DNA of 64,000 nucleotides from Bacillus sp. (in: firmicutes) (lineage in GTDB: Bacteria > Bacillota > Bacilli > Bacillales > Bacillaceae). Of the stretch, positions 10,950 through 16,578 are shown one piece after another (position 1 is the stretch's first letter; every line of letters starts with the position of its first letter). The notes under the pieces are model-generated. The model was not told the DNA's origin. It did no database searches and saw only the letters and a program-made list of their open reading frames with translations. A program made the translations under genes and the position numbers. The stretch lies in assembly GCA_031180805.1 (NCBI GenBank), contig JAPSLL010000017.1, positions 1 through 64,000 of the forward strand, written 5' to 3'.

Positions 10950-10984
10950 ACAAAAAGAGCGAACACTTATTAAGTATTCGCTCT
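10950..10984 (-). terminator. Terminator of the mevalonate operon
   Basis: On the minus strand GAGCGAATACTT / AAGTGTTCGCTC with a three-base loop, followed by TTTTTGTG. It closes the thiolase-mvaS-mvaA operon about 90 bases after mvaA. Confidence 0.88.
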
Positions 10985-11073: not shown

Positions 11074-12366
11074 TTAAGAATTTCTTAGGTTCATTAATAA
11101 TTCTTTAGCAGTAGCTATATCAAGAGATTTGCTATGTTTTAACTTGTTTGTAACAGCCTCGATTTCTTCCCCTATAGCACCGGCTGTTATAGCAAGTGAT
11201 TTTGCATGAAGAGCCATGTGCCCTTTTTGAATACCCTCGGTAACAAGTGCTTTAATGGCTGAAAGGTTTTGTCCTAAACCTACGGAAACAATAATGGACT
11301 CTAGTTCTTTTGCATTTTGATAGCTTAGCAAGCGTTTAGTAAATTGAGCGCCTGGGTGAATATTAATTTGCCCGCCGACAGCTCCAATCGGAAGGGGAAT
11401 AGTGAGACTTCCTAACAGATCTCCATTATTGTCTTTACTCCAAGAGGAGAGGGAACGATACTGGCCAGAGCGGGCTGCATAAGCATGGGCACCTGCTTCA
11501 ATTGCTCGCCAGTCATTTCCAGATGCAATGACTATAGCATCAATGCCATTCATAATCCCTTTATTATGAGTAACAGCTCTATATGGATCTACCATTGCAA
11601 ATTGTGTGGCATCAATAATTCGGTCTCTGACTTCCTCTCCTGAATAATCCCCTTTTTGTAGAAGAGAAACAGGAATTCGGCAATTGGCTGTTGCTAGACA
11701 TTCAGTTGCATAGTTTGAGAGAATGCCCATTAAAGCAGTTCCTTTTGTTAATTGTTCTAAGTATGGTTTGATGGCCTCTACCATTGTGTCAATCATATTA
11801 GCACCCATTGCTTCCAATGTCTCTATATGTAAGTGGACAACCAGAAATGGAGGGGTATTCAGTGCCTCATCGGCCGGAATATTTCGAACTGCAATATCTT
11901 TTACCCCACCGCCCCGTTTTACTATAGATGGTTTGGATTCGTTGGCAATTTGCAGAATTTCTAGCTTGTGTTCGTCGATCATTCTTTTAGCATAATCCAT
12001 ATCGGGAACTTCCTTTAAAGCGACTTGTCCAATCATGATTCGATTTTGAATGTCAGTTTGAAAACCGCCAGCTTGGTTGATAATTTTGGCTGCTGAACTT
12101 GCTGCGGCGATAACAGAAGGTTCCTCGATTGCCATCGGAACGACATATTCTTTTCCATTAATTAGAAAGTTTAAGGCAGTACCAAGAGGAAGTTCGTATT
12201 TTGCAATTTGGTTTTCAATCATATGATTTGCTACATCATCAGGTAAACTTAACCCGCCTTCTAACAACAAGGAATCCTCTTCTTTAATTATTTCAGCAGA
12301 AACTAATGCATGAATCCGTTCAAGGCGATTTTTTTGGTAGAATTTATGTAAATATTCTTTCTTCAT
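11074..12366 (-). CDS. mvaA: Hydroxymethylglutaryl-CoA reductase, class II
   Basis: A 430-residue class II HMG-CoA reductase that interconverts HMG-CoA and mevalonate. Residues matching the catalytic set are visible: the Glu in MAIEEPSVIAAAS (81-82), the Lys in THNKGIMNGIDA, the Asp in IASGNDWRAIEAG and the His in GHMALHAKSLAITAG. Families of this class are often annotated degradative, but here mvaS and a thiolase are in the same operon, which points to the synthetic direction. The ATG follows AAAGGGAG. It is the last gene of the operon, separated from mvaS by 265 bases with a strong hairpin. Confidence 0.95.
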   Translation of the reverse strand: MKKEYLHKFYQKNRLERIHALVSAEIIKEEDSLLLEGGLSLPDDVANHMIENQIAKYELPLGTALNFLINGKEYVVPMAIEEPSVIAAASSAAKIINQAGGFQTDIQNRIMIGQVALKEVPDMDYAKRMIDEHKLEILQIANESKPSIVKRGGGVKDIAVRNIPADEALNTPPFLVVHLHIETLEAMGANMIDTMVEAIKPYLEQLTKGTALMGILSNYATECLATANCRIPVSLLQKGDYSGEEVRDRIIDATQFAMVDPYRAVTHNKGIMNGIDAIVIASGNDWRAIEAGAHAYAARSGQYRSLSSWSKDNNGDLLGSLTIPLPIGAVGGQINIHPGAQFTKRLLSYQNAKELESIIVSVGLGQNLSAIKALVTEGIQKGHMALHAKSLAITAGAIGEEIEAVTNKLKHSKSLDIATAKELLMNLRNS

Positions 12367-12631: not shown

Positions 12632-13810
12632 TTATCTATTTTTATTTATATATTGACGCATATGATTCTCAATTCCTGTTAAACAAATTGTAGCCGGATC
12701 GTTTTCAATCGAATAAGCGATACTTGAACCATCAGTTGGTAGAGATGATTGATAAATTTCTTCATACTCCTGTACACTTACTTTTTTACGTTCTGCTAAC
12801 AATTTTTCATGTTGCTGAGGAAGCAGGGTATCCCTGTAATTCGGTTGCAAAATCCCTGTAAAGAATTCCCCGACAGCACCAGAACCATAGCTGTATAGGC
12901 CAATTCTAGAGCCAGCCTCAAGACTTGTATTTAATTCCAGTAATGAAAGAAGGCTTAAATATAAAGAGCCCGTATATATATTGCCAACAACTTTATTATA
13001 CCCCTTGCTAGTTTCATAATGTGCCAATAGTCTTTCTTGGTCCATAATTGTACCTTCATCTAAAATAGTTTTTAGTGCCTTAAATCCCATTTTAGTGTAT
13101 GGCAAGTGGAAACAAATAGCATCTAAATCTTTCAATTCAAGTTCAGTCTTCTCTTTGTATTGTTCCCAAACATTTTGAAAGAAGCTAATGTATATCTCAT
13201 TTGAAAATTTCCCATCCACATATGCTGAATCAGAATAAATTGGGCGCCAGAAATCCATAATATCTTCCGTTTTATAGACATTTGGTGCTTCTAATGTCAT
13301 AATTTTAGGATTAGCACTAATGAGCATAGCAACTGCTCCCGCTCCTTGTGTTACTTCACCTGAAGTATTTATCCCATATCTTGAAATATCAGACCCGAGA
13401 ACCAATACCTTGCTATCTGGATGTAGTGCGATATGACCTTTTGCCATTTGAATTCCAGCAGTAGCTCCATAACAAGCCTCTTTTACCTCGATTGATCGGG
13501 CATTAGAATTTAAGCCAAGCAAGCGATGAACATAAATGGCGGCCGCTTTGGAATGGTCAATACCAGATTCTGTCGCAAATATTACGAAATCAATTTTTTC
13601 AATGTCATCTTCAGATAATATTTCCAAGGCTGCATTAGCTGCTAATGTAACAGGATCCTGTGTACGAGGAGAGACAGCCATTTTCTCTTGGCCAATTCCA
13701 ATAGTAAATTTATCTGGTTCAATATTTCTAGCATTTGCTAGTTCAATCATATCTACATATAAGTGGGGAGTATAAAATCCAATCTTATCAATACCGATTT
13801 GCAACTTCAT
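12632..13810 (-). CDS. mvaS: Hydroxymethylglutaryl-CoA synthase
   Basis: A 392-residue enzyme that condenses acetyl-CoA with acetoacetyl-CoA to HMG-CoA. The catalytic triad of the family is present: Glu81 in FATESGIDHSK, Cys113 in EVKEACYGATAG and His235 in ICFHLPYTKMG. It also has the family SYGSGAVGEFF near the C-terminal third. Length is normal for bacterial MvaS. Start ATG follows AAAGGTGTGA. It lies between the thiolase and mvaA on the same strand, making acetyl-CoA to mevalonate complete in this operon. PksG-type polyketide HMG synthases are relatives, but no polyketide genes are nearby. Confidence 0.95.
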   Translation of the reverse strand: MKLQIGIDKIGFYTPHLYVDMIELANARNIEPDKFTIGIGQEKMAVSPRTQDPVTLAANAALEILSEDDIEKIDFVIFATESGIDHSKAAAIYVHRLLGLNSNARSIEVKEACYGATAGIQMAKGHIALHPDSKVLVLGSDISRYGINTSGEVTQGAGAVAMLISANPKIMTLEAPNVYKTEDIMDFWRPIYSDSAYVDGKFSNEIYISFFQNVWEQYKEKTELELKDLDAICFHLPYTKMGFKALKTILDEGTIMDQERLLAHYETSKGYNKVVGNIYTGSLYLSLLSLLELNTSLEAGSRIGLYSYGSGAVGEFFTGILQPNYRDTLLPQQHEKLLAERKKVSVQEYEEIYQSSLPTDGSSIAYSIENDPATICLTGIENHMRQYINKNR

Positions 13811-13969: not shown

Positions 13970-15166
13970 TCAACTATTTTTAACAGGTTGGTTTTCAATC
14001 AGCATAGAAATGCCAATTCCTCCTCCAACACATAAAGAAACCAGCCCTGTTTTAGAGCCTCTTTTGTTCATTTCATATAATAAACTTACAAGAATTCTAG
14101 CACCAGAAGCTCCGATAGGATGACCGAGTGCTATAGCACCGCCATTTACATTAACTTTATTAATATTTAAATCTAGCTCTCTAATAACTGCAATGCTTTG
14201 GGAAGCAAAGGCTTCATTTAATTCAAATAGGTCGATATCCTCTAAGGAGGAGCCTGTTTTGTTAAGCAGATTTTTAATAGAATAATATGGGGCATATCCC
14301 ATGATAGATGGATCAATACCTGCTTCTGCATATCCTTTAATTGTTCCCAAATAAGGAAGTTTTCTTTCCTCAGCTAATGATTTTTTCATAAGAACAAGTG
14401 CAGTAGCTCCATCATTGATGCCTGATGAATTTCCTGCTGTAACAGTGCCATCTTGTATAAAAGCTGGTTTCAGTTTTTGTAAGCTTTCTAGGGTTGTATC
14501 GTGACGAACATATTCATCCTCACTAAATATCATTTCTTTACCCTTAGGAAGACTCACTTTAACAGGAACAATCTCGTCTTTGAATCTACCATTATTTAGA
14601 GCCTTTGTAGCCTTAATTTGGGAATCTAGTGAAAATTGATCTTGTTCTTCACGAGAGATTCCAAATTGATTGGCAATATTTTCAGCTGTTATACCCATAT
14701 GAACTTTGTTAAAGGCATCTGTCAGCCCGTCATGTACCATACTGTCAATCATAGTGGCATTGCCCAGCTTATTTCCCCAGCGAAGATTTGGTGTCAAGTA
14801 TGGTGCCTGGGACATATTTTCTGTACCGCCAGCAACTACAATATCTGCATCGCCTAACATAATAGATTGCGCGCCGAGAATAACCGATTTCAGTCCTGAT
14901 CCACACACTTCGTTAATCGTCATTGCCGGCACTTCATATGGAATACCAGAGTTAATGGCAATTTGCCTTGCTGGATTCTGACCAAGGCCCGCTTGTAAAA
15001 CATTACCGAAAATAACATTATCCACATCTTTAGGTGTTATTTTAGCTCTTTTTAAAGCTTCATCCGTTGCTATTGTACCTAGTGTTACGGCAGTTATATT
15101 ACTTAAACTGCCACCGAATTTTCCAATGGGTGTACGGGTAGCGCTAATTATTACAACCTCTTCCAT
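13970..15166 (-). CDS. Acetyl-CoA C-acetyltransferase (thiolase)
   Basis: A 398-residue thiolase that forms acetoacetyl-CoA from two acetyl-CoA. The acyl-accepting Cys88 is in [11 protein letters not shown], the catalytic His in [15 protein letters not shown] and the second Cys (about 379) in [11 protein letters not shown] chose the ATG at 15166 behind GAAGGAGTAACAAA; a frame open 19 codons further upstream has no ribosome site. It is the first gene of the minus-strand mevalonate operon. More than 600 bases of leader with two riboswitches precede it. Confidence 0.93.
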
Positions 15167-15360
15167 TTTGTTACTCCTTCGCAAGTAATTTATAAAAGAA
15201 ATCAAAACAGTTTTTATTAACAATAAAAAACTTAATTATCGTGATCCACTAATAGAAGGATCTAGTTTTTATTGCATATTGTATTTTCTTATCTAAATGA
15301 TTTAGTATGTAATTCCGATTAACTAAAAATACAAAAAGAGCTAAAAAGTGATAAATTACA

Positions 15361-15385
15361 ACTATCCGGTATTTGCAGATAGTTC
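15361..15385 (-). promoter_or_regulatory. Leader hairpin between riboswitches and thiolase
   Basis: Inverted repeat AACTATC / GATAGTT with an 11-base loop in the untranslated leader. On the minus strand a T-rich stretch follows some 20 bases later. It could be a weak terminator or just a leader fold. Confidence 0.4.
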
Positions 15386-15431: not shown

Positions 15432-15464
15432 TCACCGAATGGTATATTTTAATGTGTTATCCAT
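15432..15464 (-). CDS. Possible 10-codon leader peptide (uORF)
   Basis: Minus strand ATG at 15464 opens a 10-residue frame (MDNTLKYTIR) ending in TGA. The start is preceded by GAGGAGGTGAG, one of the strongest ribosome sites in the window. It sits after the last riboswitch terminator and about 265 bases before the thiolase start. It may be a short upstream reading frame that affects leader folding or mRNA stability, or a chance start. No homologue is known to me. Confidence 0.4.
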   Translation of the reverse strand: MDNTLKYTIR

Positions 15465-15496
15465 CTCACCTCCTCAAAGATATGACCCAAAAAGAC

Positions 15497-15531
15497 ACAA
15501 AAAACCCGTCCATGATGAAATAGACGGGGAC
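15497..15531 (-). terminator. Riboswitch A expression-platform terminator
   Basis: Minus strand CCCGTC / GACGGG around an 11-12 base loop followed by TTTTTT. It begins four bases after the aptamer. A GACGG at the aptamer's 3' edge could pair with the 5' arm instead, giving a competing fold. Confidence 0.85.
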
Positions 15532-15534
15532 CCG

Positions 15535-15636
15535 TCGTATTCGGCAACTGGCTGGCATAGTGGTTTATGTTCCACCTTAGCCCCTGTAGCTTTGCGTCGC
15601 CACTTTTCAGTGGGTTTGCTATTATCGTACGATAAT
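15535..15636 (-). promoter_or_regulatory. GEMM-I (cyclic-di-GMP-I type) riboswitch aptamer, gene-proximal copy A
   Basis: Read on the minus strand the element shows the GEMM-I core in order: GCAAACC, a P2 helix CCACT-GAAA-AGTGG closed by a GNRA tetraloop, GACGCAAAGC, a P3 helix GGGGCTAAGGTGG / CCACTATGCCAGCC, then GTTGCCG. P1 can form from TCGTA (5') and TACGA (3'). The position aligned with Vc2 G20 (complement of base 15620) is A, while the C aligned with C92 is kept. A terminator follows directly. It lies in the thiolase-mvaS-mvaA leader, so it should switch that operon in response to a cyclic dinucleotide. Confidence 0.92.
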
Positions 15637-15679
15637 TATTATATTATTCTGAATTTTACAAAGACATAGTTACTAAAAA

Positions 15680-15716
15680 GACATAAAAACCCCGTCCATG
15701 ATGAAATAGACGGGGA
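15680..15716 (-). terminator. Riboswitch B expression-platform terminator
   Basis: Minus strand CCCCGTC (15709-15715) / GACGGGG (15690-15696) followed by TTTTTATG. Near-identical to the terminator of copy A. Confidence 0.87.
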
Positions 15717-15720
15717 TCCG

Positions 15721-15820
15721 TCGTATTCGGCAACTGGCTGGCATAGTGGTTTATTCCACCTTAGCCCCTGTAGCTTTGCGTCGCCACTTTTCAGTGGGTT
15801 TGCTATTATCGTACGATAAT
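15721..15820 (-). promoter_or_regulatory. GEMM-I (cyclic-di-GMP-I type) riboswitch aptamer, promoter-proximal copy B
   Basis: Almost the same sequence as copy A, shifted by 186 bases; the only change inside the aptamer core is a two-base shorter P3 loop. It has the same GCAAACC, GAAA tetraloop, GACGCAAAGC and GCCAGCC elements, the same A at the G20-equivalent position (complement of base 15804) and its own terminator. Both copies begin with the 16-base perfect palindrome ATTATCGTACGATAAT. The high identity suggests recent duplication. Two aptamer-terminator units in series normally give a tighter response than one. Confidence 0.92.
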
Positions 15821-16084
15821 TGTTATATCTTCCTTAATTTTCCTTGAATTTATTGTAACAAGCATAATGAGTGCCAACAATAGGTATTTTATACTATATT
15901 TTACAGCATTCGACTTTTACAGTTCTTCTAAAAATAGAACAAGGATGACAGAAAATATCTGGTTATTATTGGGATGCTTTATATATAAATCTATTTCTAA
16001 TCAAAGGAATTTATAAATCACTTAGAGTATTCGAAGGTTTTTATCATAATCTATTATTATTCGAAAAGTATAAGCTAAAATGAC

Positions 16085-16160
16085 ATAAAAACCGCGTCTA
16101 TGCTTTAATAGACGTGGAGATCCGTCATATGTTTAGCTGTTTTCGTCAATCGGACTATAT
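16085..16160 (-). repeat. Decayed third riboswitch unit (terminator kept, aptamer truncated)
   Basis: On the minus strand the hairpin CGTCTAT / ATAGACG is followed by CGGTTTTTATGTCA, as in the terminators of copies A and B, and is preceded by GACGGATCTCC like the aptamer-terminator junction of copy B. Upstream only fragments such as GACGAAAACAGCTAA remain; the P2 helix and GCAAACC are missing. I read it as the remnant of a third tandem copy. Confidence 0.5.
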
Positions 16161-16215: not shown

Positions 16216-16578
16216 ATGAAGAATGTTAGCCAAGAAATAAAAGATTTGTCTATTAAATCCTTGGAGTCTACTTTTAATAAACTGTCAAATGCATATAAAA
16301 GTATGACAGAAACTGGTTCAAACACAACCCTTGTCCAAAAGAGACTAAACGCAGTGAAAATTGGTTTAGAAAGCCTAAAAGGTACGTGGAATGGGGAAGA
16401 GTTTAGATATGATGAAGAAATCATATTGACCTCTAAAGAAGTTTTACAAGGTATCATTCCATCTATTGAAAAACAGATAGCAAAGTCAAAAGAAGGCAGT
16501 TCTCAAAGAACATTAAATGATCGTCGCTTAACTGCACTTAAACTGGTAATTGAATCCTTCGAGAATCGTCTTATATAA
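16216..16578 (+). CDS. Hypothetical protein with an internal duplication
   Basis: A 120-residue, all-helical, charged cytoplasmic protein without signal or membrane segment. The two halves are related: QKRLNAVKIGLESL (about residues 41-54) matches DRRLTALKLVIESF (about 101-114), each preceded by a helix and a polar GS/T-rich turn. The ATG follows a GTGAGG-type site. I do not recognise the family. It is oriented away from the mevalonate leader and has a separate terminator 210 bases downstream. Confidence 0.6.
   Translation: MKNVSQEIKDLSIKSLESTFNKLSNAYKSMTETGSNTTLVQKRLNAVKIGLESLKGTWNGEEFRYDEEIILTSKEVLQGIIPSIEKQIAKSKEGSSQRTLNDRRLTALKLVIESFENRLI

Follow-up and report, generated by a model that had tools for sequence, protein, structure and literature searches.

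Riboswitches of the c-di-GMP-I (GEMM-I) class have repeatedly been recorded in tandem: the sections of PMC9481103 cited here count 347 doublets and 12 triplets, and in them same-ligand tandems are also reviewed as sharpening the response. In Bacillus thuringiensis, a Bacillus relative, Bc3-5 comprise several complete aptamer-plus-terminator units before one operon (PMC4759541, in the part cited), an arrangement also found here. An earlier sequence-only reading of the present DNA had stated that tandem c-di-GMP riboswitches as such are already known in Bacillus, and these records bear it out. Sensing of c-AMP-GMP by riboswitches has been described for several Gram-negative bacteria (PMC9262584, in the passages cited). 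The Geobacter GEMM-Ib / c-AMP-GMP riboswitches have an A at the ligand-selecting position and likewise include tandem pairs (excerpts of PMC8835794 and PMC6456294). No report linking GEMM-I with mevalonate, mvaS, hydroxymethylglutaryl or isoprenoids was found in the open literature, judged by titles and the starts of abstracts, and on that basis the earlier claim that a mevalonate target is undescribed also holds.

The locus described here lies in a Bacillus sp. genome of 4.58 Mb, assembled in 119 contigs with a stated completeness of 100. The window, i.e. the whole stretch of 64,000 nt that was analysed, was searched in full against Rfam with cmscan, for which the c-di-GMP-I (RF01051) gathering cut-off is 35 bits. 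Exactly two c-di-GMP-I matches were found in the window, both on the same strand and both covering model positions 1-87 of 87 (Table 1). The core elements GCAAACC, a GAAA-capped hairpin, GACGCAAAGC and GCCAGCC are present in the sequence, and each aptamer is followed after around 10 bases by its own intrinsic terminator. The sequence-only reading had proposed just such a tandem pair of complete minus-strand units, each with a terminator, and had named this covariance model as a check; both scores lie well over the threshold and the proposal stands, although the spacing it gave as 186 bases is 184 when measured from start to start. A relic terminator further upstream of unit 1 (16095-16114, minus) aligns with the terminator of unit 1 of a second tandem pair, on contig C92 of the same genome, and is probably what is left of a third unit that has lost its aptamer. 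A search with filters off gave at most 2.8 bits on the minus strand at this site. The plus-strand match of 8.8 bits (E 0.042) was taken as chance and rejected as a third aptamer.

Table 1. Features of the tandem GEMM-I units and the mevalonate operon, in window coordinates.
Feature	Position	Strand	Evidence
Candidate cassette promoter	15852..15880	minus	TTGTTG, 17 nt, TACAAT, TG before it (extended -10); score 9.5
Palindrome TTATCGTACGATAA 5′ of aptamer 1	15806..15819	minus	self-folding or UCGUA given to P1
GEMM-I aptamer 1	15726..15814	minus	cmscan RF01051 79.3 bits, E 6.1e-14
Antiterminator 1 (predicted)	15704..15728	minus	10 pairs in truncated-transcript fold; -9.2 kcal/mol, 4/200 shuffles as stable
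Intrinsic terminator 1	15690..15715	minus	-16.5 kcal/mol; 0/200 shuffles as stable
Palindrome 5′ of aptamer 2	15622..15635	minus	genome motif search
GEMM-I aptamer 2	15540..15630	minus	cmscan RF01051 76.9 bits, E 2.3e-13
Antiterminator 2 (predicted)	15518..15542	minus	10 pairs in truncated-transcript fold; -9.2 kcal/mol, 4/200 shuffles as stable
Intrinsic terminator 2	15505..15528	minus	-13.5 kcal/mol; 1/200 shuffles as stable
Acetyl-CoA acetyltransferase (thiolase)	13970..15166	minus	NCBIfam TIGR01930 494 bits, cut-off 240.55
mvaS, HMG-CoA synthase	12632..13810	minus	TIGR01835 549.1 bits, cut-off 360.35
mvaA, class II HMG-CoA reductase	11074..12366	minus	TIGR00532 338.3 bits, cut-off 259.95
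Operon-closing intrinsic terminator	10956..10984	minus	13-pair stem, then T run

The next genes on the minus strand had been named as thiolase, mvaS and mvaA, and their NCBIfam scores, all over the cut-offs, agree, the thiolase assignment being to a broad acyltransferase family. Residues 3-388 of 392 in mvaS align to the solved HMG-CoA synthase 3v4n, and residues 8-428 of 430 in mvaA to the solved HMG-CoA reductase 3qae. No terminator-like site was found in either intergenic gap and a 13-pair terminator follows mvaA, so that the three genes look like one unit. Two weak terminator-like sites lie within the thiolase gene (14059-14043 and 14302-14287). The gene uppP (10581-9784) was rejected as a member of the operon because the strong closing terminator intervenes.

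Our main reading, to which we assign a probability of roughly 0.55 on sequence evidence from one genome, is that two GEMM-I units of one expanded genome family would act as independent transcriptional OFF switches in series on thiolase-mvaS-mvaA, with mevalonate as the end product. The switches, their terminators and their place at the head of the operon had been recognised in the sequence-only reading; the orphan pathway, the A-type aptamers and the predicted OFF sign had all been missed. The finding is therefore more curious than that reading held, given an operon product without a recognised use and aptamers of the A type.

The identity of the ligand turns on position 11 of the RF01051 model, where the consensus is G and both window aptamers carry A. 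Hence the G usual at the ligand-reading position in the c-di-GMP subclass is absent from both, and the A typical of c-AMP-GMP riboswitches is present. Position 11 precedes the first A of the core by 27 bases, which we take to be the same spacing as from A14 to A41 in Gs1761 and from G20 to A47 in Vc2, and the window A stands in what we take to be the same AAUA context as in Gs1761. Checked against Vc2, the numbering was ambiguous: one offset fits all three contact letters but puts G20 one base later, and the other puts G20 at model position 11 but misses contact C92. At its contact bases the Gs1761 string matches the list given in PMC7288161 (11/11), in the part cited. Position 11 was equated with these bases on the strength of its 27-base distance to the core A and of this contact list. 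Within the genome, 6/9 GEMM-I copies have A at position 11. Elsewhere in the Bacillota it was found at 3/40 sampled sites in other species of the genus and at 4/40 in mvaS-bearing relatives, i.e. 7/80 sites taken from longer site lists. Since RF01051 also admits these A-type RNAs, family membership is unaffected by the A; on the covariance-model scores both aptamers belong to RF01051, and only the ligand subclass is in question.

With A at the selectivity position, the ligand could also be c-AMP-GMP, or either of the two. The alternative that c-AMP-GMP is sensed in place of c-di-GMP, which would be compatible with an ON or an OFF switch, we regard as possible but on the doubtful side. In its favour, the base matching Gs1761 A14 / Vc2 G20 is an A in both aptamers and, genome-wide, in 6/9 GEMM-I copies. 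Moreover, in the sections of PMC9481103 cited here an A-type aptamer from elsewhere bound c-AMP-GMP markedly better and c-di-GMP perhaps slightly weaker. Against this, replacing the corresponding base in Cd1 of Clostridioides difficile is without large effect (PMC9262584, in the part cited), and A occurs also at 7/80 sampled sites of other genomes. With 13 GGDEF matches in the genome, production of c-di-GMP can be presumed. The GGDEF position that we take to be Ser in cGAMP-making Hypr enzymes is Asp throughout the 12 assessable domains, and no Hypr-type GGDEF was found among these 12; the 13th is truncated at the end of a contig, and the search for synthases covered GGDEF domains. We take c-di-GMP as the most likely ligand, favoured though not certain.

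A different doubt concerns the connection between the switches and the genes. Nine GEMM-I copies were found in the genome, seven of which have matching platforms and constitute one family: two here, two on C92, two on C67 and one on C21. By this sequence comparison the window units belong to a promoter-plus-switch cassette present in several copies in the genome. The upstream regions of 4 cassette copies align with 66% mean column identity and share a promoter-like pattern, TTGnTn, 16-17 nt, TTAnAWN, with a preceding TG in 3/4. The candidate promoter in the window is the best-scoring site in a relaxed scan of 15815-16100; a standard promoter scan omits it (8 of 12), and the region has 9 promoter-like sites vs 11.7 expected. 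A further promoter-like site between units 1 and 2 scores 9, vs 9.5 for the cassette promoter, so that unit 2 may have its own start; both units are nevertheless probably carried on one shared transcript, as we model it.

The palindrome TTATCGTACGATAA lies just 5′ of 6/7 family aptamers. Genome-wide there are 4 exact and 2 one-mismatch sites, 6/6 beside GEMM-I, and a role as a genome-wide protein-binding site was rejected because at up to one mismatch the palindrome occurs in the genome solely beside GEMM-I. At up to two mismatches there are 16 and 19 sites in the genome vs 8 and 11 for the control, and 187 forward sites in total in the other 20 genomes of the genus vs 219 for the control. Other members of the family precede varied genes. 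The C92 pair (L012, 4507-5503) precedes 247-aa and 90-aa proteins without a Pfam or NCBIfam match. The C67 pair (L013, 3491-6141) precedes FAD-NAD(P)-binding and haem aldoxime dehydratase-like proteins, another unusual neighbour for GEMM-I, with a MetA-like protein further on. The remaining genes behind GEMM-I copies in the genome encode a protein without a family on C21, a GGDEF-EAL protein on C60 and, on C89, a short frame followed by an HTH protein with a SinI domain. The cassette copies thus illustrate a promoter-plus-riboswitch module that has spread within one genome to unrelated operons.

The distance from terminator 2 to the thiolase start is 338 nt. Homology with the C92 cassette reaches around 90 nt beyond terminator 2 and is then followed by around 230 nt of unrelated sequence up to thiolase, as might be expected if a duplicated cassette lay upstream by chance and the mva operon relied chiefly on a promoter of its own within the gap (15490-15170). 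We find this account conceivable if doubtful: that the arrangement was not found elsewhere among 47 mvaS loci speaks for it, but the best promoter-like site in the gap scores 8 vs 9.5 upstream (neither score being proof), and the three genes have come together on one strand behind the cassette. Several further elements were observed near the cassette. Terminator 2 is followed (15432-15475, minus) by a long Shine-Dalgarno sequence, GAGGAGGTGAG, and a frame of 10 codons; the sequence may be an mRNA-stabilising SD, and similar ones follow the terminators of C92 unit 2 and of both C67 units, where the 10-codon frame is not kept. A hairpin, AACTATC...GATAGTT (15360-15384, minus), lies between terminator 2 and thiolase, and a 120-aa protein without a Pfam match is encoded divergently from the cassette (16216-16578, plus).

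The distribution of mvaS was surveyed in 80 genomes of the family, only one of which, the genome itself, contains mvaS over the cut-off. Among the other 79 genomes, 13 have matches of 236-246 bits (cut-off 360), which we read as PksG type. The nearest mvaS sequences found are 72-76% identical and come from Salinibacillus, Heyndrickxia, Oceanobacillus, Aquibacillus, Neobacillus, Sporolactobacillus and Lentibacillus. A total of 47 mvaS loci, reaching up to 10 kb either side and including thiolase in 11/47, were searched with a GEMM-I model built from 33 copies. No GEMM-I was found at E up to 0.01 in 47/47 loci, the best being 20.2 bits (E 0.34, L077). The same arrangement upstream of mvaS/mvaA in other Bacillaceae, which had been suggested as worth looking for, was thus found in none of these loci or of the other family genomes, and with a single genome on one side and 47/47 loci on the other, conservation gives the link no support. 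GEMM-I is present in 12/18 relatives' genomes searched, so that the family is available there, yet it is unlinked to mvaS within the loci. In Heyndrickxia coagulans 36D1 and DSM 1 a GEMM-I lies around 11 kb upstream of the decarboxylase; a link to the lower mevalonate genes was rejected, as the gene after it in 36D1 encodes a GGDEF protein (140.4 bits, cut-off 37.4). In 6/6 relative loci holding all three genes, mvaS is on the opposite strand to thiolase and mvaA, vs one strand here; in Facklamia (L102, without thiolase) mvaA and mvaS share a strand. We infer from these comparisons that the upper pathway seems to have been horizontally acquired and rearranged onto one strand behind the switches.

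With regard to how the switches would work, folding predicts a transcription switch of the OFF type. The predicted antiterminator (GAAUA-C-GACGG / CCGUC-UAUUU) shares bases with the 3′ strand of P1 and with the 5′ arm of the terminator, and all ten of its pairs form in 7/7 homologous units when the RNA ends before the terminator 3′ arm. The P1 stem is our own predicted element and is absent from the Rfam RF01051 structure. Ensemble calculations show that enforcing P1 (CGUA/UACG) on a transcript lacking the terminator 3′ arm costs 4.2-7.2 kcal/mol, that the cost drops to 0.9-4.0 kcal/mol once most of this arm is present, and a remnant of 4-5 antiterminator pairs persists when P1 is enforced. 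Single-base shuffles of the A strand gave as stable a hairpin in 35/5000 and 116/5000 cases. Terminator 1 (15715-15690) and P1 occupy separate bases and can form together, while the antiterminator opposes both; since the terminator is compatible with P1 and the antiterminator competes, the predicted folding corresponds to an OFF layout. When there is little ligand, the strand GAAUACGACGG would pair with CCGUCUAUUU, sequestering the terminator 5′ arm, and polymerase would read on. When a cyclic dinucleotide is bound, P1 (UCGUA/UACGA) would take part of GAAUACGACGG and leave the antiterminator with four or five of its ten pairs, and the weakened antiterminator would allow the terminator to fold and transcription to stop. 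Two independent switches in series would multiply the block and sharpen the response, and at low messenger levels the operon would produce mevalonate from acetyl-CoA.

The terminators are more stable than the antiterminators (-16.5 and -13.5 vs -9.2 kcal/mol), and ligand-free full-length folds have the terminator in 5/7 units, both window units included, and the antiterminator in 2 (C67). Switching would therefore have to be kinetic. In the 7-unit alignment there is no covariation support for the antiterminator, 8/10 pairs being invariant and the other 2 differing by one unpaired cell, nor does the covariation of the terminator helix exceed shuffles, 171/500 of which score as high; the seven units, as close paralogs, are too alike for covariation to appear. 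Those same full-length minimum-energy folds would suit an ON switch, in which the ligand prevents the terminator and mevalonate is made at high c-di-GMP, as would precedent: tandem Bc3-Bc5 of Bacillus thuringiensis are ON switches (PMC4759541) and the Bc1 dual terminator unfolds with c-di-GMP (PMC11218506), both as given in the parts cited. However, the Bc4 terminator requires the P1 strand itself, whereas here P1 and terminator are separate and can coexist, and the full-length fold retains the antiterminator in both C67 units, which makes an ON switch unlikely. As a separate observation, the aptamer 2 core GACGCAAAG (15590-15598, minus) is complementary to the post-terminator tail UUUUGUGUC (15494-15502), and this pairing appears in 3/7 full-length folds.

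Of the mevalonate pathway to isoprenoids, the upper enzymes HMG-CoA synthase and HMG-CoA reductase are present in full length; the lower-pathway kinases and decarboxylase were not detected in the genome. Diphosphomevalonate decarboxylase was not found, the best TIGR01240 score in the genome being 20.5 bits, at ThrB, against a cut-off of 171.35. The GHMP kinases (PF00288) detected in the genome number three: the homoserine kinase ThrB (286.4 bits), beside threonine synthase, IspE (369.2 bits) and the galactokinase GalK (612.1 bits). All three pass the cut-offs of their respective families but none passes a mevalonate kinase cut-off, and no mevalonate kinase was found. Conversely, TIGR01240 is over the cut-off in 17/18 mvaS-bearing relatives chosen from the 47 mvaS loci, Listeria marthii having pieces below the cut-off. 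Dxr (1-deoxyxylulose-5-phosphate reductoisomerase) is present (551.6 bits, cut-off 315.7). With this gene content mevalonate has no known onward route, and the lack of a detected mevalonate kinase suggests that mevalonate would be an end product rather than an isoprenoid precursor. It is very unlikely that the operon serves breakdown, with HMG-CoA reductase running backwards on mevalonate taken up from outside: mvaA matches a family named degradative and the lower pathway was not found in the genome, but class II reductases of biosynthetic routes also score in that family, mvaS and thiolase are signs of synthesis, and the stretch from the switches to the closing terminator holds no uptake gene. 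Judging from the gene content, mevalonate is probably exported or built into a product not yet known, and it may be an end product made in one lifestyle only; a mevalonate-using enzyme of unrecognised type is also possible.

If the double OFF switch with mevalonate as end product is correct, a second-messenger riboswitch would be tied to acetyl-CoA metabolism and to mevalonate that has no recognised role in isoprenoid synthesis, and one would then have to ask what purpose this mevalonate serves. A bolder version, which we consider rather improbable, is that a Gram-positive A-type GEMM-I pair, perhaps sensing c-AMP-GMP, would form a double OFF switch on an orphan mevalonate operon, with mevalonate as an exported product or signal at low messenger. 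The six A-type aptamers of this genome, together with those at the sampled sites in other Bacillota, make c-AMP-GMP sensing beyond Gram-negatives directly testable.

Taken together, the kind of riboswitch is known and its tandems are common; the target, the orphan pathway and an A-type aptamer in such a setting are unreported in the literature searched. The nearest gene sets are in Heyndrickxia, Salinibacillus, Aquibacillus and Sporolactobacillus (6 loci), where thiolase, mvaS and mvaA are 68-77% identical to those of the window; these loci differ in having mvaS on the opposite strand, a TIGR01240 decarboxylase and no GEMM-I within the locus. The Geobacter switches belong to Gram-negative bacteria with Hypr GGDEF synthases and have cytochrome, pilus and polysaccharide targets (as far as the excerpts of PMC8835794 and PMC6456294 go), unlike the present genome, in which none of the 12 assessable GGDEFs is Hypr-like. 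Bc3-5 differ in sign, in a terminator that uses the P1 strand and in the downstream operon, named cspABCED (PMC4759541, in the part cited). The predicted layout is also unlike that of the ON switch pilM and is instead that of the OFF switch Cd1, likewise GEMM-I, in which the terminator (T-H) coexists with the closed aptamer and the antiterminator (A-T) competes; here too A-T is predicted to be set against P-A plus T-H (PMC9262584, in the sections cited). Cd1 has G at the matching base, whereas the window has A, a tandem pair of units and mevalonate genes downstream.
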